Assembly (NCBI GenBank): GCA_007692645.1 | Contig: REBR01000259.1 | Coordinates: 1-38,843 of the forward strand | Reading direction: 5' to 3' | Length of the DNA stretch: 38,843 nucleotides | Source: Halomonadaceae bacterium | GTDB taxonomy: Bacteria; Pseudomonadota; Gammaproteobacteria; Pseudomonadales; Oleiphilaceae | Program-made: the position numbers and the translations under genes | Notes under the pieces: model-generated | Told to the model about the DNA's origin: nothing | The model's input: only the letters and a program-made list of their open reading frames with translations | The model's database searches: none | In this document: positions 2,513 to 12,609 of the stretch, one piece after another | How positions within the stretch are numbered: position 1 is the first letter of the stretch | Layout: every line of letters begins with the position of its first letter

Positions 2513-3619
2513 TCAGCCAATCTGAGCCAGGGTCTGGCGCAGGGTGAGAATCACTTCATCCGCTTGCTGTTGGGTGAGCTCCGGGTGCATGGGCAGGGAC
2601 AGGCAGTGGGCTGAGACCTCTTCTACAACCGGCAGGCACAGGTCCGGGAACAGTGGCTCCAGGGCGGGCTGGCGGTAGAGGGGGATGGGGTAGTGAATGG
2701 CGCAGCCAATCTGCTGTTCCTGCAGTGCCTCATAGACATAATCCCGTTGACTCAGCAGCAGCGTGTACTGGTTGAACACATGGCAACTGTATTGATCCTG
2801 GCGTGGGGTGATCAGGCTGGACATATCAGCCAGTGACTGGGTGTAATACCGGGCCCAGTGCCGGCGGGCTTCGTTGTAGCGGTCAATGCGCCGCAGTTTG
2901 GCCCGCAGAACCACCGCCTGGAATTCATCCAGACGACTGTTATAGCCGGTCATCTCATGGCAATGGCGCTTGTGGCTGCCGTGGTTGCACAGGGAGCGCA
3001 GGCGGGCGGCGAGCTGGTCGTCCTGGGTGGTGATCAGGCCGCCGTCGCCGCAGGCCCCCAGGTTCTTGCTGGGGAAAAAGCTGAAGCAGCCGGTGTTGCC
3101 CAGGGTGCCGGTAACCCCCGCGGTACAGCTGGCGCCAAAGGACTGGGCGCAATCCTCCACCAGATACAGTTCATGGTGAATGGCAATACTGCGCAGCAGC
3201 TCCATGTCTGCCGGCTGCCCGAACAGGTGCACCGGCAGAATGGCTTTGGTGGCCTCGGTAATGGCCTGTTCCACCAGGGCCGGGTTGAGGTTGAAGCTGC
3301 GGGGGTGGATGTCCACAAACACCGGGGTGGCGCCGGTGAGTAAAATGGCCTCCACCGTGGCAAAGAAACTGAAAGGGGTGGTGATCACTTCATCCCCGGG
3401 GCCAATATCCAGTGCCCGCAAACTCAGCATCAGGGCATCAGTGCCAGAGGCACAGCTGATGGCATGACGGCTGCCCAGGTAGTCAGCGGCTTCCTCTTCG
3501 AAGGCGGCCACCTGGGGGCCGAACAGAAACTGGCCGCTGGCCAGCACACTGTGTATGCCGCTGGTGATTTCCTTGTCCAGGGCGGCGTTCTGGGTTTTCA
3601 GATCCACCATTGCAATCAT
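2513..3619 (-). CDS. gnnB: DegT/DnrJ/EryC1/StrS sugar aminotransferase (GnnB-like)
   Basis: A 368-residue PLP-dependent aminotransferase of the sugar-nucleotide type. Visible marks are the cofactor-binding ASGTDAL near residue 58, the VEDCAQSFGA segment near 155 and the PLP lysine in FPSKNLGACGDGG near 185. It transfers an amino group, normally from glutamate, to a keto group on a nucleotide-linked sugar. The ATG overlaps the stop of the upstream oxidoreductase (ATGA), so the two are translationally coupled. An oxidoreductase of this kind plus a DegT aminotransferase is the GnnA/GnnB pair that makes UDP-GlcNAc3N for amide-rich lipid A. A WbpE/VioA-like role in O-antigen sugar synthesis is the main alternative. 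The family is certain, the symbol is tentative. Confidence 0.85.
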   Translation of the reverse strand: MIAMVDLKTQNAALDKEITSGIHSVLASGQFLFGPQVAAFEEEAADYLGSRHAISCASGTDALMLSLRALDIGPGDEVITTPFSFFATVEAILLTGATPVFVDIHPRSFNLNPALVEQAITEATKAILPVHLFGQPADMELLRSIAIHHELYLVEDCAQSFGASCTAGVTGTLGNTGCFSFFPSKNLGACGDGGLITTQDDQLAARLRSLCNHGSHKRHCHEMTGYNSRLDEFQAVVLRAKLRRIDRYNEARRHWARYYTQSLADMSSLITPRQDQYSCHVFNQYTLLLSQRDYVYEALQEQQIGCAIHYPIPLYRQPALEPLFPDLCLPVVEEVSAHCLSLPMHPELTQQQADEVILTLRQTLAQIG

Positions 3620-4608
3620 TTTGGCTGTCCTCCGCTATTGGTGGGGGCACGCTGGTCTGTGGTGAGCATCGGGCTGGCGGACATGTGCTGCATGATCAGG
3701 TGCGCAATTTTTAAGGCCCGCATACCATCCCTGGGACTGACCTGGGGTTGGCGGCGGTGGCGGATACAGGCAATAAAGGCCTGAATTTCCGCCTGCAACG
3801 GGTCGCTTAGGGGGAATTTCAGCGGCGACGGATCCTGCCGCTTCAGTGGGTGAGACTGCCAGCCAGAAGGGCGGCTGAAGCGCTCCAGGGTGTTCTTGTG
3901 CAGATCAGCGCAGTAAAACTGATCCTGCTGGAAAATTCGCAGCCGCCGTTGTGGTTGGCTGCTGATGCGGCTGGCGGTCAGTCTGGCGACACAGCCGTTG
4001 CAGAAATGCAGGCGGGCATCGGCAATGTCACTGTGCCGGGTCATCACTGGCCGGCCGCTGGCATCAATGCGGGCCACCGGGGAGGGCACCAGCTGCAGGA
4101 TGTGGTCGATATCATGAATCATCAGGTCCAGTACCACGTCCACATCATTGCCCCGGGTGGAAAAGCTGGACAGACGGCTGGCGCGGATAAACAACGGCTT
4201 GTGGCAATGACTTTGCAGAGACTGCCACACCGGGCTGAAGCGCTCCACATAGCCCGGCTGCAGCACGCAGCGTTGCTGGTCTGCCAGGGTGATCAGCTGC
4301 CGTGCCTGCACCAGGCTGGTGGTCATGGGTTTCTCCACCAGCACATGAATGCCCGCCCACAACAGGTCCCGGCAGACAATAAAGTGGCGACTGGCAGGCA
4401 CCGCCACACTGACCAGGTCGACCCGGCCTGGCAGTAACTGGTGGTCGTCCAGGGCCTCGGCACCGGTTTCCCCCGCCAGTTGCCGGGCCCGGTCCAGGTT
4501 GATGTCCACCACGGCAACCAGTTCTACCCCGGGCAGGGCAGCGTATTTACGGGCATGGAATCGCCCCAGGTGCCCGGCCCCCACCACCGCCGCCCGCAGG
4601 GCCGTCAT
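3616..4608 (-). CDS. gnnA: Gfo/Idh/MocA-family sugar-nucleotide oxidoreductase (GnnA-like)
   Basis: A 330-residue NAD(P)-dependent dehydrogenase. An N-terminal Rossmann fold starts with VVGAGHLGRFHARKYAAL, and the family motif VLVEKPMTTS near residue 98 holds the conserved lysine. The substrate domain contains GYVERFSP and DVVLDLMIHDIDHIL, wording I associate with UDP-GlcNAc 3-dehydrogenases (GnnA). It would oxidise the 3-OH of UDP-GlcNAc so that the overlapping downstream aminotransferase can aminate it. It is the first gene of a two-gene operon. No lpxA, lpxD or O-antigen gene is adjacent in this window, so the pathway cannot be confirmed from context. Confidence 0.82.
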   Translation of the reverse strand: MTALRAAVVGAGHLGRFHARKYAALPGVELVAVVDINLDRARQLAGETGAEALDDHQLLPGRVDLVSVAVPASRHFIVCRDLLWAGIHVLVEKPMTTSLVQARQLITLADQQRCVLQPGYVERFSPVWQSLQSHCHKPLFIRASRLSSFSTRGNDVDVVLDLMIHDIDHILQLVPSPVARIDASGRPVMTRHSDIADARLHFCNGCVARLTASRISSQPQRRLRIFQQDQFYCADLHKNTLERFSRPSGWQSHPLKRQDPSPLKFPLSDPLQAEIQAFIACIRHRRQPQVSPRDGMRALKIAHLIMQHMSASPMLTTDQRAPTNSGGQPK

Positions 4609-5096: not shown

Positions 5097-7244
5097 ATGA
5101 GTACAGGCAAAAAGAGTGTAATTGCATTAATTATTCTGGCGGTGGCGGCCTTTTTCCTGCTGGATATGGGGCGGTTTCTGGAACTGGAGGCGCTCAAAGC
5201 CCACCAGGGGGAACTGAATGCCCTGATTGCGGATAATCTGCTGCTGAGTCTGGCGCTGTTTTTCCTGGTGTATGTGGCGGTCACGGCCCTGTCACTGCCC
5301 GGGGCGGCGGTCATGACCCTGGCGGGTGGTGCCCTGTTCGGCCTGGGCTGGGGGCTGGTGATTATTTCCTTTGCCTCCACCATTGGTGCCACCCTGGCGT
5401 TCCTGGTGGCCCGCTTTCTGCTTCGTGACACCCTCAAATCCCGTTATGCCAGTACCCTGCACAAAGTGGACGAAGGCATTCGCCGGGACGGTGCCTTTTA
5501 CCTGGCCACCCTGCGGCTGATTCCGGTGTTTCCGTTCTTTGTGATCAATATCGTTATGGGCCTCACCGGCATGCGCACCTGGACCTACTACTGGGTCAGC
5601 CAGCTGGCCATGCTGCCGGGCACACTGGTGTATGTGAATGCCGGCACCCAGCTGGCCGGAATCGAGGGCATGGGGGATATTGTCTCCCCGGGGCTGCTGC
5701 TGTCGTTTGTGTTGCTGGGGATCTTCCCGCTAGTGGCCAAGTTCATTATCGGCCGGATTCAGCGTAAGCGTCTGTACAGCCGCTTTCGCAAGCCAGTGAA
5801 CTTCGACTACAACATGGTGGTTATTGGTGCTGGCAGTGCCGGTCTGGTGTCTGCCTATATCGGTGCCACGGTGAATGCCAAGGTGGCACTGATTGAACGG
5901 GGCAGCATGGGGGGGGATTGCCTCAATACCGGCTGTGTGCCCTCCAAGGCCCTGATCCGCTCCGGCAAGCTGGCCCAGCAGATGCGCCAGGCAGACAGGT
6001 ACGGCCTGACAGCGGTGAACCCAAAGGTGCCCTTTGCGGATGTCATGAAGCGCATTCACAAGGTCATAGAGACCATAGAACCCCATGATTCGGTGGAGCG
6101 TTTTACCGGCCTCGGGGTGGACTGCATCCAGGGTTCGGCGAAGCTGATTACCCCCTGGGAGGTGGAAGTCACGGAAGGGGACAGCACCCGCCGGCTAACG
6201 GCCCGTTCCATTATTATCGCCAGTGGCGGCAAGCCCTTTGTGCCGCCGATTCCAGGCATTGAAGAGGTTGACCCACTGACCTCGGAAAATCTGTGGGAAA
6301 TTGAAGAGCAGCCCGGGCGCCTGCTGGTACTGGGGGGTGGTCCTATTGGCTGTGAGCTGGCCCAGGCCTTCCACCGCCTGGACAGCCAGGTGACACAGGT
6401 AGAGCAGGGGGATCGGTTACTGGCCCGGGAAGACGAGGATGTCTCTGAGCAGGTGCTGCTGCGATTTCAGGAAGAAGGGGTGGATGTGCGCCTGGGCCAC
6501 AAAGCCAGCCGTTTTGCGGTGGAAGAGGGTGAGAAGGTGCTCTACTGCGAACACCAGGGTCAGGAAGTGCGCATTGTCTTTGACCAGGTCCTGGTGGCCG
6601 TGGGGCGCAAGGCCAACACCGAGGGCCTGGGCCTGGAGAATCTGCACATTACCCCCACGGAGCGGGGCACCCTGCCCACCAATGACGATCTGAGTGTGCT
6701 GTACCCCAATGTGTTCGCCTGCGGTGATGTGGCCGGACCCTATCAGTTTACCCATACTGCGGCCCACCAGGCCTGGTTTGCGGCGGTGAACGCCCTGTTT
6801 GGTCAGTTCAAGCGCTTCAAGGTGGATTACTCGGTGATCCCCTGGGTCACCTTTACCTCCCCTGAAGTGGGGCGGGTGGGGTTGAGCGAGACGGAGGCCC
6901 GGGCCCAGGGGATCGATTTTGAAGTTACCCGCTATGGACTGGACGATCTCGACCGGGCCATTACCGAGTCTGAAGCCCACGGCTTTATCAAGGTGATTAC
7001 CCCCCGTGGCAAGGACCGTATTCTGGGCGCCACGGTGGTGGGTGAGCATGCCGGTGAACTGCTGGCAGAGTTTATTCTGGCCATGAAACACAAGATCGGT
7101 CTGAACAAGATTTTAGGCACCATTCATCCTTACCCCACCTGGAATGAGAGCGTAAAATTCGCTGCTGGTGAATGGAAAAAAGCCCATGCGCCTCAAAGGG
7201 TTATTCGTTGGTTGGGTAAGTATCACAGCCGTCGCCGGGGCTAG
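5097..7244 (+). CDS. TVP38/TMEM64 (DedA-like) membrane domain fused to a pyridine nucleotide-disulfide oxidoreductase
   Basis: A 715-residue two-part protein. Residues 1-230 form a polytopic membrane domain of the SNARE-associated/VTT type (PF09335), with helices near 8-24, 48-70, 72-110 and 190-220 and the pattern LRLIPVFPFFVINIVMG. From about residue 238 there is a complete flavin disulfide reductase: FAD motif VVIGAGSAGLVSA, redox pair in GGDCLNTGCVPSKA (about 272-285), NAD(P) motif LVLGGGPIGCELAQAF, second FAD motif VFACGDVAGPYQFTH and C-terminal dimer domain with TIHPYPTWNES. The overall resemblance is to mercuric reductase or lipoamide dehydrogenase, but there is no HMA domain or C-terminal Cys pair for mercury. 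It is probably a membrane-anchored NAD(P)H oxidoreductase of unknown substrate. It is monocistronic and followed by a terminator. Confidence 0.9.
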   Translation: MSTGKKSVIALIILAVAAFFLLDMGRFLELEALKAHQGELNALIADNLLLSLALFFLVYVAVTALSLPGAAVMTLAGGALFGLGWGLVIISFASTIGATLAFLVARFLLRDTLKSRYASTLHKVDEGIRRDGAFYLATLRLIPVFPFFVINIVMGLTGMRTWTYYWVSQLAMLPGTLVYVNAGTQLAGIEGMGDIVSPGLLLSFVLLGIFPLVAKFIIGRIQRKRLYSRFRKPVNFDYNMVVIGAGSAGLVSAYIGATVNAKVALIERGSMGGDCLNTGCVPSKALIRSGKLAQQMRQADRYGLTAVNPKVPFADVMKRIHKVIETIEPHDSVERFTGLGVDCIQGSAKLITPWEVEVTEGDSTRRLTARSIIIASGGKPFVPPIPGIEEVDPLTSENLWEIEEQPGRLLVLGGGPIGCELAQAFHRLDSQVTQVEQGDRLLAREDEDVSEQVLLRFQEEGVDVRLGHKASRFAVEEGEKVLYCEHQGQEVRIVFDQVLVAVGRKANTEGLGLENLHITPTERGTLPTNDDLSVLYPNVFACGDVAGPYQFTHTAAHQAWFAAVNALFGQFKRFKVDYSVIPWVTFTSPEVGRVGLSETEARAQGIDFEVTRYGLDDLDRAITESEAHGFIKVITPRGKDRILGATVVGEHAGELLAEFILAMKHKIGLNKILGTIHPYPTWNESVKFAAGEWKKAHAPQRVIRWLGKYHSRRRG

Positions 7245-7313: not shown

Positions 7314-7400
7314 AGACACCCAAATCATCAGAGAGGCGCGCTAAGCAGAAGGCGATGTGAAACACCCATTGCTGTGATGTTTTCGCGACACCCTTACTTA

Positions 7401-7916
7401 ATGAGTAGCGATAATTCGAGTTCCAACTCTATCATTCTGCGCCAGCCGCGCAGTGAAGACGGCTACCGCCTGCATCAGCTGATTGCTGCATGCCCACCCC
7501 TTGATCCCAACTCCATCTATTGCAATCTGCTGCAATGTGACCATTTTGCCGCCACCGGTGTGGCAGCGGAAATGGACGGTAAACTGGTGGGCTTTATTTC
7601 AGCGTACATTCCGCCACAGAAACCGGACACGGTGTTTGTCTGGCAGGTTGCCGTACACAGTGATGCCCGTGGCCATGGCCTGGGCAAGCGTATGCTGAAA
7701 GAAATCGTTCAGCGCCCCGCCTGCGCTCAGGTGCAGTACATGGATACCACCATCACTGATGACAACGAAGCCTCCTGGGGGTTGTTCCAGTCCTTTGCCC
7801 GGGATCTGAAGGCTGAGACCGCACGCTCCGTTTACTACCACAGCGAGCGTCATTTTGACGGTCAGCACGATTCCGAGCATTTGCTGCGCATCGGTCCCTT
7901 CTCCGTTCAGGGTTGA
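7401..7916 (+). CDS. ectA: L-2,4-diaminobutyrate N-acetyltransferase (EctA)
   Basis: A 171-residue GNAT acetyltransferase. It matches EctA closely: ACPPLDPNSIYCNLLQC near residue 30, then FVWQVAVHSDARGHGLGKRML near 78-97, the acetyl-CoA site. It transfers acetyl from acetyl-CoA to the gamma-amino group of 2,4-diaminobutyrate, giving the ectoine precursor N-gamma-acetyl-diaminobutyrate. I chose ATG 7401, which begins MSSDNSSS, although an in-frame ATG at 7377 is possible; neither has a strong ribosome site. In normal ectoine operons ectB and ectC follow, but here the ectoine-type aspartokinase comes next after 74 bases. The enzyme itself looks intact. Confidence 0.93.
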   Translation: MSSDNSSSNSIILRQPRSEDGYRLHQLIAACPPLDPNSIYCNLLQCDHFAATGVAAEMDGKLVGFISAYIPPQKPDTVFVWQVAVHSDARGHGLGKRMLKEIVQRPACAQVQYMDTTITDDNEASWGLFQSFARDLKAETARSVYYHSERHFDGQHDSEHLLRIGPFSVQG

Positions 7917-7990
7917 CCGGCACGGCCGCGGCCCCCGTCAGCGGGGCTTGCAGAACGACCTTAAAGTCATTCCAAGCGAAGACAAGAATC

Positions 7991-9430
7991 ATGAGTAAAC
8001 AGCATACAGTTGAAAAAATCGGCGGCACGTCCATGTCTAACTACATTGCGGTGCGGGACAACATTATTGTCGGCGCCCGCCGTGCCGAAGAAGTGTATAA
8101 CCGCATTTTCGTGGTGTCCGCCTATGGCGGTGTTACCGACAAGTTACTGGAGCACAAAAAAACCGGTGACCCCGGTGTCTACGACCTCTACTCCCACGCC
8201 GAATCTGACTGGGCCTGGGGCGACGAACTGAGCAAACTGGCCAAGCACCTGTGTGATATCAATGATGACCTGTTTGGCGATGACCTGCTGAGCCAGCAGG
8301 CCAATCAGTTTATTGCCGAGCGCATTGAAGGGGTGCGCAACTGCCTGCTGGACCTGCAGCGGCTGTGCTCCTATGGTCACTTTCAGCTGGAAGACCACCT
8401 GCTGACGGTGCGGGAAATGCTGGCGGGTATCGGTGAGGCCCACAGTGCCTTCAACACTACCCTGCTGCTGCAGAACGAAGGCTACAACGCCCGCCTGGTA
8501 GACCTTACCGGCTGGCGGGATTCCGAGACCCTGCCCCTGGATGAAAAAATTGCCAAGGCGTTCGATAAAATCGACCTGACCCGGGAGCTGGCCATCGTTA
8601 CCGGCTATGCCCAGTGCAAGGAAGGTCTGATGCGCACCTTCGACCGGGGCTACAGCGAGATGACCTTCAGCCGTATTGCCTGCATTACCGATGCCCGGGA
8701 AGCGGTGATTCACAAGGAATACCACTTAAGCTCCGCGGACCCGAAAATTGTCGATGCGGAGAAAGTCGTGCCCCTGGGCCGCACCAATTACGATGTGGCG
8801 GACCAGTTGGCCAACCTGGGCATGGAAGCGATCCACCCCCGGGCCGCCAAGGGCATGCGCCAGAACGACATTCCCCTGCGCCTCATGAACACCTTCGAGC
8901 CGGAGCACACCGGTACCCTGATCACCCGGGACTATGTGAGCGAGAAGCCCCAGGTGGAGATCATTGCTGGCAAGAAGCACGTGTTTGCCATTGAAGTGTT
9001 TGATCAGGACATGCAGGGGGAGCCAGGAGCAGACCGTAAATTCCTGGAAGTGCTGGCCCGCTTCAAGATCCGCTTTGTTACCAAAGACACCAACGCCAAC
9101 ACCATTACCCACTACGTGGACACCACCCTGCGTAACGTCAAGCGGGTAGTGAAGGCCCTGGAAGAGGTGTTTCCCAACGCGGAAATCTCCACCCGCAAAC
9201 TGTCCATTGTCTCTGCCATTGGCAGCGACATGCAGGTGCCGGGCATTCTCGCCAGGTCTGTGCAGGCCCTGGCGGACGAAGACATCGCCATCGTCGCCCT
9301 GCATCAGTGCATGCGTCAGGTGGATATGCAGTTTGTGGTGGATGAAGCGAACTACGAGAAGGCCATCACAACCCTGCATCGGGTACTGATTGAGCCCCAT
9401 AACCACGAGTACGCCATCGTCGCCGCCTGA
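7991..9430 (+). CDS. ask: Ectoine-pathway aspartokinase (Ask_Ect)
   Basis: A 479-residue aspartate kinase of the specialised type found in ectoine gene clusters. It opens with HTVEKIGGTSMS, contains FVVSAYGGVT, and carries a long helical insertion (residues about 60-140) seen in that subgroup. The catalytic domain runs to about 320 (RTFDRGYSEMTFSRIA and AEKVVPLGRTNYDVADQLANLG), and two ACT domains fill the C-terminus (about 325-470). It phosphorylates aspartate at the head of the aspartate-semialdehyde branch that feeds diaminobutyrate synthesis. The ATG at 7991 was chosen because homology starts there; the open frame extends upstream to a TTG that overlaps the ectA stop. It is probably cotranscribed with ectA. 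Confidence 0.92.
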   Translation: MSKQHTVEKIGGTSMSNYIAVRDNIIVGARRAEEVYNRIFVVSAYGGVTDKLLEHKKTGDPGVYDLYSHAESDWAWGDELSKLAKHLCDINDDLFGDDLLSQQANQFIAERIEGVRNCLLDLQRLCSYGHFQLEDHLLTVREMLAGIGEAHSAFNTTLLLQNEGYNARLVDLTGWRDSETLPLDEKIAKAFDKIDLTRELAIVTGYAQCKEGLMRTFDRGYSEMTFSRIACITDAREAVIHKEYHLSSADPKIVDAEKVVPLGRTNYDVADQLANLGMEAIHPRAAKGMRQNDIPLRLMNTFEPEHTGTLITRDYVSEKPQVEIIAGKKHVFAIEVFDQDMQGEPGADRKFLEVLARFKIRFVTKDTNANTITHYVDTTLRNVKRVVKALEEVFPNAEISTRKLSIVSAIGSDMQVPGILARSVQALADEDIAIVALHQCMRQVDMQFVVDEANYEKAITTLHRVLIEPHNHEYAIVAA

Positions 9431-9504: not shown

Positions 9505-9606
9505 AGGGCTTACACAACCGCCTAAATCTTCATCCAGTTGACTGCCCGCGCCGTATATTCTGCTACCAAACTACTCACTCAACATTCACAAACCCAGGTA
9601 ACAGTT

Positions 9607-10704
9607 ATGGATACCTTGCTTGATCCTATCGATCAACGTGATCCGGAACTGGGTGACGACAGGCTCAGCGACCGTGATTCGGCGGATGCCGATGACGCTG
9701 TAGCCAGCTGGAGGGAACCAGAGTCCCCGCTTCTGGAATTACCGGATGACAACGAACCGACCAGTGTTATTGGCCGGTACTTCCGCGATGCCCACCGCTT
9801 TAACCTGCTCGGGGCTGAATCGGAACGGGACCTTTCCAGCGCCTTGAATGATGCCCTGGAAACCCTGCTGCGCCAGGTGCCCGGGGCCGAGTGTTCAGCA
9901 CTGACCATTCGGGATGTGCTGGAGCTGGTGGAAGAGGCTGACGTTCAGCTGGATGAGGCCGGTCTCAGGGCCAAAGCGGCCATTGAGAGCTGCCGCAGCC
10001 GGCTGATTGAAAGCAACCTGCGCCTGGCAGTGCACCTGGCCCGTGGCCAGCAAAACCGCGGCCTGCCCATGCCGGACCTGATTCAGGAAGGCAACGTGGG
10101 CCTGATCAAGGCAGTGGAGCGTTTCGATCCGTCACGGGGCTTCAAGTTCTCCACCTACGCCTACTGGTGGATTGCGGAAGAGATCAAACGGGCCATCAAA
10201 CGGGGCCGTCGGGTGGTGCGCACTCCGGATCACGTGGTGGATGAGATTCGTAAGGTGCAGGCCGTAGAAGCCCGTCTGGCCCGCAGCCTGGGGGAGCTCC
10301 CCACCCGGGAAGCCCTGGCCGCTGCCACGGACACTACCCCGGCCCGTATCGAGGAGTTGTACCGTTTTGCCCGGCCGGAGGTGTCTACCTCTATGCCCAT
10401 CGCTTCCGATGGTGATCTGACATTGGCGGATACGCTGATGGATTCAGAGTCGGAGCCGGTGGATCAGGTGATGGGGGACCGGGATCAGCAGCGGGTGCTT
10501 GACCAGGTATTGTCCATGCTGAAACCCCGTGAGGGGGAGATCCTGCGCCGCCGCTTTGGTCTCGATCGCCGGGAGCCGGAAACCCTGCAGATGATCTCAG
10601 CGGATCTGGGTATCAGCCGGGAACGGGTGCGCCAGATCGAGAAGGCAGCCATGATGAAGTTGCGTGAACATTCTGCGGATTTTGCCCATTTGGCGGGCAA
10701 TTGA
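9607..10704 (+). CDS. Sigma-70 family (group 2-like) RNA polymerase sigma factor
   Basis: A 365-residue sigma factor with an acidic, probably disordered N-terminus (1-55), region 1.2 (from about 50, SVIGRYFRDAHR), regions 2.1-2.4 (about 131-205), region 3 (about 205-270) and region 4 (about 290-355, ending SRERVRQIEKAAMMKLR). The core-binding helix RLIESNLRLAVHLAR and LIQEGNVGLIKAVERFD are well kept, as are Trp187-Trp188 for DNA melting. The two residues that in RpoD read the -12 base (Gln437, Thr440) align with Glu191 and Lys194. An extra stretch of about 50 residues sits between regions 1.2 and 2.1. It resembles RpoS in size but is not a clear RpoS. ATG 9607 follows a weak AGGTAA site; the upstream TTG at 9538 is less likely. 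Confidence 0.88.
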   Translation: MDTLLDPIDQRDPELGDDRLSDRDSADADDAVASWREPESPLLELPDDNEPTSVIGRYFRDAHRFNLLGAESERDLSSALNDALETLLRQVPGAECSALTIRDVLELVEEADVQLDEAGLRAKAAIESCRSRLIESNLRLAVHLARGQQNRGLPMPDLIQEGNVGLIKAVERFDPSRGFKFSTYAYWWIAEEIKRAIKRGRRVVRTPDHVVDEIRKVQAVEARLARSLGELPTREALAAATDTTPARIEELYRFARPEVSTSMPIASDGDLTLADTLMDSESEPVDQVMGDRDQQRVLDQVLSMLKPREGEILRRRFGLDRREPETLQMISADLGISRERVRQIEKAAMMKLREHSADFAHLAGN

Positions 10705-11821: not shown

Positions 11822-12220
11822 CTAAGGGGTTTTGCTCTGCCATCGGCCAAGATAAAAGCCGCTGGCTACAGCCCCCAGAGCCAGTGTGCCGTTGAGGCCC
11901 AGATTGGCCCAGGCCTGAACCCAGGCGCCGGCTTCAATCAACTGCAGGGTCTCCAGGCTAAAAATGGAGAAGGTGGTAAAACCGCCGCAGAAACCAGTCA
12001 TGACAAACTGGCGCCGGTGCAGTGCCGCCATGGGGTGTTGTTGGGGCAGCGTCAGGGCCGCAAACCAGCCAATGATCAGGGAGCCCAGCACATTCACTGA
12101 CAGAGTGCCCAGGGGGATCAGCCCGCCGGCCTCCGCTGGCATGCCCTGTTGAATGGCGTAGCGGCACAGGCTGCCCAGCATACTGCCCAGGGCGACCCAG
12201 AGGGTAACGGTGGGGTTCAT
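11822..12220 (-). CDS. crcB: Fluoride ion channel CrcB/Fluc, second copy
   Basis: A 132-residue four-helix membrane protein. It keeps the family motifs: GSLCRY near residue 17, GTLSVNVLGSLIIG (38-51, with pore Asn43) and TGFCGGFTTFSIFSLE (75-90), including both pore phenylalanines (Phe84 and Phe87). Fluc channels are dual-topology dimers that export toxic fluoride. The ATG overlaps the stop of the preceding crcB copy by four bases (ATGA), ensuring matched synthesis. The start at 12220 was chosen for this coupling and because the extra upstream frame has no family similarity. Having two different copies side by side suggests a heterodimer. Confidence 0.92.
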   Translation of the reverse strand: MNPTVTLWVALGSMLGSLCRYAIQQGMPAEAGGLIPLGTLSVNVLGSLIIGWFAALTLPQQHPMAALHRRQFVMTGFCGGFTTFSIFSLETLQLIEAGAWVQAWANLGLNGTLALGAVASGFYLGRWQSKTP

Positions 12221-12609
12221 GGCATGCCTCCTGCCAGCAACAGCCGCATGCCGGTGGCACCCAGCCACAGGGCCGTCATGCAACCGAACAGTGAAAGGAA
12301 GATGTTGTTGAAGGCGTTGCTCCAGTCCCCCGCCTGCATCAGGGTCAGGGTCTGCAGGCTGAAGGAGGAGACAGTGGTGTAGCTGCCACAGAAACCCAGA
12401 ATCAGCAGCCCGGTGAGCTCGCCGCCAAACCAGGACTGGGTGCCAGCCAGCACGGCCAGGGCGCCTACCACCAGGGCGCCGGTGAGGTTCACAACCATGG
12501 TGCCCCAGGGGAATACCTCACCGGTGTAGCCGGTGACCAGGCCGCTCACCCAGTAACGCAGCACGCCACCCCCGGCACCCCCCAGGGCCACTGCCAGCCA
12601 GGTCAGCAT
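12217..12609 (-). CDS. crcB: Fluoride ion channel CrcB/Fluc, first copy (variant Phe box)
   Basis: A 130-residue CrcB homologue with GGGVLRYW (13-20), GTMVVNLTGALVVG (36-49, pore Asn41) and GFCGSYTTVSSFSLQT (72-87). In the Phe box the first phenylalanine of the usual TTFSTF is Val80, while Phe83 remains; the partner copy keeps both. The gene overlaps the end of tag by 7 bases and the next crcB by 4, so tag-crcB-crcB is one tight operon. It probably forms a heterodimeric fluoride channel with the downstream copy. I saw no clear fluoride riboswitch ahead of the operon. Confidence 0.92.
   Translation of the reverse strand: MLTWLAVALGGAGGGVLRYWVSGLVTGYTGEVFPWGTMVVNLTGALVVGALAVLAGTQSWFGGELTGLLILGFCGSYTTVSSFSLQTLTLMQAGDWSNAFNNIFLSLFGCMTALWLGATGMRLLLAGGMP

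Follow-up and report, generated by a model that had tools for sequence, protein, structure and literature searches.

A natural ectoine gene pair without ectB

EctB is regarded as both the entry and the rate-limiting step of ectoine synthesis, and a complete ectABC set commonly serves to call ectoine producers from genomes. The window analyzed here, a 38,843-nucleotide stretch of DNA from a salt-loving marine bacterium, raises the question of how a cell might use an ectoine operon in which ectA is followed directly by the gene of the ectoine-type aspartate kinase, ask, with neither ectB nor ectC in between.

Both genes are intact and of the ectoine type, as the initial annotation had proposed, and both products score above the cut-offs of their curated families. 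EctA, the L-2,4-diaminobutyrate N-gamma-acetyltransferase (171 aa; 7401-7916, + strand), reached 198.9 bits in a search with the TIGR02406 equivalog profile (cut-off, 120.6), and phmmer matched it to the EctA structures 3d3s (E = 3e-45) and 6sk1 (E = 7e-33). Its ORF spans 7374-7916 (+) and is readable from a GTG at 7374; alignment to relatives places the start at the ATG at 7401. Ask_Ect (479 aa; 7991-9430, +) scored 774.7 bits against a cut-off of 536 with the NF006614/PRK09181 aspartate kinase profile and is 77-85% identical to the kinases encoded 3' of ectAB or ectA in close relatives. The 74-base spacer that separates the two genes (7917-7990), likewise as annotated, is the site occupied by ectB in 72 of 80 related loci (seven others are ectA-ask and one is cut), and comparison with the relatives' loci revealed no recognizable ectB-like remnant in it.

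Both flanks of the pair are typical of the family-wide ectoine operon. Upstream of ectA lies a gene for a 715-aa fusion of a VTT domain and a pyridine-nucleotide-disulphide oxidoreductase (5097-7244, +), a conserved neighbor that sits close to ectA in 79 of the 87 loci compared. The conserved neighbor downstream of ask encodes a sigma-70 family factor (9538-10704, +), as is the case at most 1 kb 3' of ask in 56 of the 87. This divergent, RpoS/RpoD-like factor directly follows ask in EctB-less loci, too, and is a possible stress regulator of the ectoine operon. The nearest named relatives of the window are Halospina denitrificans, Halovibrio salipaludis, and 'Vreelandella utahensis', with Marinobacter next.

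The ectoine synthase gene is kept on another contig

A profile search located a single ectC in the window's genome, on a separate contig (G000:C185:10306-10701; NF009806, 203 bits). When compared at the positions described for binding of metal (Fe ligands), substrate, and product (PMC6344544), its product retains W21, S23, R25, T40, Y52, E57, Y85, H93, and F108; position 38 is a His, as in the solved structure 5bxx. Its identity to the remotely located ectC genes of the Halospina group and Marinobacter is 73-84%, whereas the operonic copies in genomes G011 and G008 reach only 53-54%. A remote ectC is the usual arrangement in this family, seen in most Marinobacter examined and reported for M. 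hydrocarbonoclasticus (PMC3187862).

Loss of ectC is thereby ruled out, and the "ectC absent" half of the original observation is ordinary, remote and solitary EctC proteins being already known. The idea that ectBC might reside elsewhere in the cell is thus borne out for ectC; for ectB, no such copy was found in the genome (see below). Since ectC is retained, N-gamma-acetyl-diaminobutyrate, which had been suggested as a final solute, need not be the end product.

Three genomes (G020, G063, and G065) carry more than one ectC copy, G020 together with a stop-containing ectC fragment. The Halospina/Halovibrio group additionally encodes a protein of ~556-560 aa (L128:8243-9913 (+), G009:C3, G020:C12, and G032:C14), which we considered as an EctB-EctC fusion and rejected: it joins an EctC-like cupin to an ATP-grasp domain and lacks two key EctC residues, with the Fe ligand His93 replaced by Tyr and Tyr52 by His. 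To judge from its sequence, this protein, whose gene adjoins those of two S15-type hydrolases and an M20 peptidase, is probably not an ectoine synthase. No counterpart turned up in the genome of the window.

EctB is missing from 13 EctA-bearing genomes

With the TIGR02407 profile, nothing in the window's genome (88% complete, 288 contigs) exceeded the EctB cut-off of 552 bits, the best match being an ArgD at 172 bits. At this level of completeness, the absence of ectB from the window's own genome rests partly on kinship. Four relatives of the Halospina/Halovibrio type (96-99% complete) share the ectA-ask pair, and no EctB was found in them or in eight Marinobacter-type genomes with EctA (99-100% complete, one of them a single contig). 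While the state of the window's assembly would allow for an ectB that is present and was missed, these twelve genomes make such an oversight a most improbable explanation. A diverged ectB copy elsewhere was also considered and rejected, as the class-III transaminases of the EctB-less genomes were all assigned otherwise.

In a family survey of 139 genomes, comprising the window's own and others picked at ≥95% completeness, EctA was detected in 136 and EctB in 123. Thirteen genomes had EctA and no EctB, namely, the window's, the four of the Halospina group, and the eight of Marinobacter type. The remark that an EctA-Ask pair on its own is unusual was therefore fair, with ~10% of the family's EctA-bearing genomes (13/136) lacking EctB. 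The ectA and ask reading frames are intact in all 13. Moreover, the same ectA-ask junction, with a spacer of 40-194 bp, recurs in the twelve other genomes, most of them from isolates, which makes the assembly error that had been named as a possible refutation very unlikely. The ectB half of the observation is real.

ectB was deleted in place more than once

In a tree built on EctA+Ask, the EctB-less genomes fell into at least four clades. The window grouped with the Halospina group (support, 100/100), and M. confluentis grouped with CHS3-4 and G093 (100/99). EctB-less M. vulgaris was placed beside EctB-bearing Marinobacter sp. ATCH36, and the branching of four further EctB-less genomes (G088, G114, G130, and G151) was unresolved with respect to EctB-bearing G137 (L331). 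EctB requires a minimum of five state changes on this tree, so a later regain of ectB or recombination in G137 is possible; this genome, which sits amid scar-bearing ones, may also be their sister.

Two of these lineages have retained deletion scars. G088, G114, G130, and G151 have in common a 194-bp spacer in which the initial ~20 ectB codons survive; its translation (18 residues compared, with small variations, ahead of a stop codon) was set against the corresponding 26 residues of an intact relative's EctB. Relative to G137, the sequence jumps after the ectB start by ~1.24 kb into the ectB-ask spacer. In M. vulgaris, a 180-bp spacer retains the last ~120 nt of ectB in comparison with ATCH36, and the loss of ectB in this species is very recent. 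As the break points differ between the two scar lineages, we conclude that these were separate in-place deletions. No ectB remnant was recognized in the other EctB-less spacers compared. The comparison thus shows that the family-typical ectA-ectB-ask operon turned into ectA-ask by clean in-place removal of ectB, without a visible scar in the window's lineage and with one in two others. The clean ectBC deletion for which a synteny check had been proposed holds for ectB and not for ectC, given the latter's usual remote position.

The remaining genes are under purifying selection

Simple NG86 estimates for ectA and ask gave dN/dS values of 0.04-0.16 in the scar clade, which goes back to one common deletion; 0-0.09 in the Halospina/Halovibrio group (dS up to 1.1); 0.016-0.041 among M. 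confluentis, CHS3-4, and G093 (dS of ~1 or more); and 0.08-0.11 between the window and the Halospina group, where dS is partly saturated. Both genes are therefore under strong purifying selection in several EctB-less lineages (dN/dS mostly 0.02-0.16), and such low values after ectB loss make them look like working genes.

These data bear on the idea that the pathway is decaying, ectB having been lost first and ectA, ask, and ectC being relics that still await loss. While the very recent event in M. vulgaris would suit this idea, neither the relaxed selection nor the broken frames of a decaying cluster were found. Instead, dN/dS stays well below 1 over long divergence in three EctB-less clades, frames are intact throughout, and the EctC catalytic residues are preserved in the eight EctB-less genomes examined (a set that excludes G088, G093, G114, G130, and G151). 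We regard decay as highly improbable.

Housekeeping transaminases as candidate replacements for EctB

With EctB absent, diaminobutyrate has to be supplied by another route, as the initial annotation had contemplated. We consider it probable that the ectoine pathway is functional, that its dedicated transaminase was lost in place, and that another enzyme, likely GabT or ArgD, aminates aspartate-semialdehyde. Ask would provide aspartyl phosphate and thereby aspartate semialdehyde, which a non-EctB transaminase would convert to L-2,4-diaminobutyrate; EctA would then acetylate the diaminobutyrate, and the remotely encoded EctC would close the ring to yield ectoine.

The stand-in for EctB would most likely be a housekeeping class-III omega-transaminase, i.e., GabT or ArgD/AstC. 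Such a role is credible because Halomonas elongata delta-ectB and delta-ectB delta-doeD mutants still synthesize ectoine, for which the authors credit other transaminases (PMC3187862). Across the EctB-less genomes, the class-III set consists of GabT, ArgD/AstC, BioA, and HemL, with patchy extra copies in some; in CHS3-4 and M. vulgaris it comes down to GabT, ArgD, BioA, and HemL, and the window's group adds an argF-linked ArgD. GabT or ArgD is present in every EctB-less genome, the GabT of the window's genome being a fragment at a contig end. No fully discriminating alignment column in GabT or ArgD sets the EctB-less genomes apart and no convergent change was found, so neither enzyme is singled out. 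We slightly prefer GabT, given that diaminobutyrate is 2-amino-GABA and that diaminobutyrate and GABA are the preferred amino donors of the EctB reverse reaction (PMC3187862).

Two other class-III proteins were rejected as special replacements. ArgD2 (TIGR00707) occurs in the Halospina group as well as in the window's genome, while none was seen in the Marinobacter genomes that were searched; it adjoins a gene that reads as argF-like and is more likely an enzyme of arginine biosynthesis. A 569-573-aa protein is patchily distributed, and a similar one occurs in EctB-bearing G137.

A dedicated but unrelated enzyme, either a transaminase of another fold or a different diaminobutyrate-forming activity, might instead have replaced EctB from outside the operon, before or after the loss. 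Its patchy occurrence would explain why certain lineages lost ectB, and our survey covered class-III aminotransferases. Yet no extra gene common to the EctB-less genomes was seen beside ectA-ask or ectC, and loss in four clades would demand four acquisitions or one widespread gene, which leads us to view this replacement as unlikely. Less likely still is salvage, in which diaminobutyrate or N-acetyl-diaminobutyrate would be drawn from ectoine that is taken up or recycled (DoeA/DoeB), or from some other import, with EctA and EctC merely re-forming ectoine. H. elongata does have a synthesis-degradation cycle (PMC3187862), but the ectoine-type aspartokinase, an enzyme best explained by de novo flux, has been kept under strong constraint.

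Relation to known ectoine systems

Among known systems, the window comes nearest to the Marinobacter operons, ectABC-ask or ectAB-ask with a remote ectC, which resemble it in their EctA, Ask, and EctC families, the order from ectA to ask, the remote ectC, and the flanks. In contrast to the Marinobacter ectAB-ask operon, that of the window lacks ectB, and none was found in the genome. The H. elongata delta-ectB laboratory strains SB1 and SB1.1 likewise combine EctA and EctC without EctB and still make ectoine (PMC3187862); there, however, the deletion is artificial and confined to one strain, whereas here it is natural, recurs across four or more clades, and has persisted through long evolutionary spans. 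Solitary-EctC genomes such as that of Pseudomonas syringae also have an incomplete ectoine gene set and may draw on external N-gamma-acetyl-diaminobutyrate (PMC5924519), but they lack both ectA and ectB, while here ectB alone is gone and the ectoine-type aspartokinase is retained.

In the limited literature searched, which included few subscription journals, we came across neither a description of a naturally EctB-less ectoine operon nor ectoine measurements or physiology for EctB-less species. A leaky ectB deletion in one laboratory strain was already known; repeated natural loss that affects ectB alone, leaves scars, and is followed by selection on the remaining genes was not met with in this literature. 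EctB thus appears as the one dispensable part in this family, lost on four or more occasions, with EctA, EctC, and the ectoine-type kinase all retained, and rules that ask for a complete ectABC may overlook ectoine producers. It is possible, if rather doubtful, that a natural and stable EctB-independent pathway exists in which diaminobutyrate is the product of a specific, as yet unrecognized enzyme, formed from aspartate semialdehyde or through other chemistry, permitting the repeated loss of ectB in one family. EctB-less natural strains with EctB-bearing sisters offer material for finding an alternative diaminobutyrate-forming enzyme.

Other genes in the window

The window itself encodes a DegT aminotransferase (2513-3619), which we rejected as a replacement for EctB: it resembles nucleotide-sugar enzymes (WbpE) and was not found close to ectA in relatives. 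It is followed by a GFO/IDH/MocA oxidoreductase (both within 2513-4608, -) whose nearest family, UDP-GlcNAc 3-dehydrogenase, scored below the cut-off. Their sequences suggest that the two act together on nucleotide sugars, perhaps to make a 3-amino sugar. On the other side of the ectoine genes, 11822-12283 (-) encodes a protein of the CrcB (fluoride channel) family, the profile test covering this ORF, and the adjoining ORF at 12217-12609 (-) reads like a second CrcB subunit.
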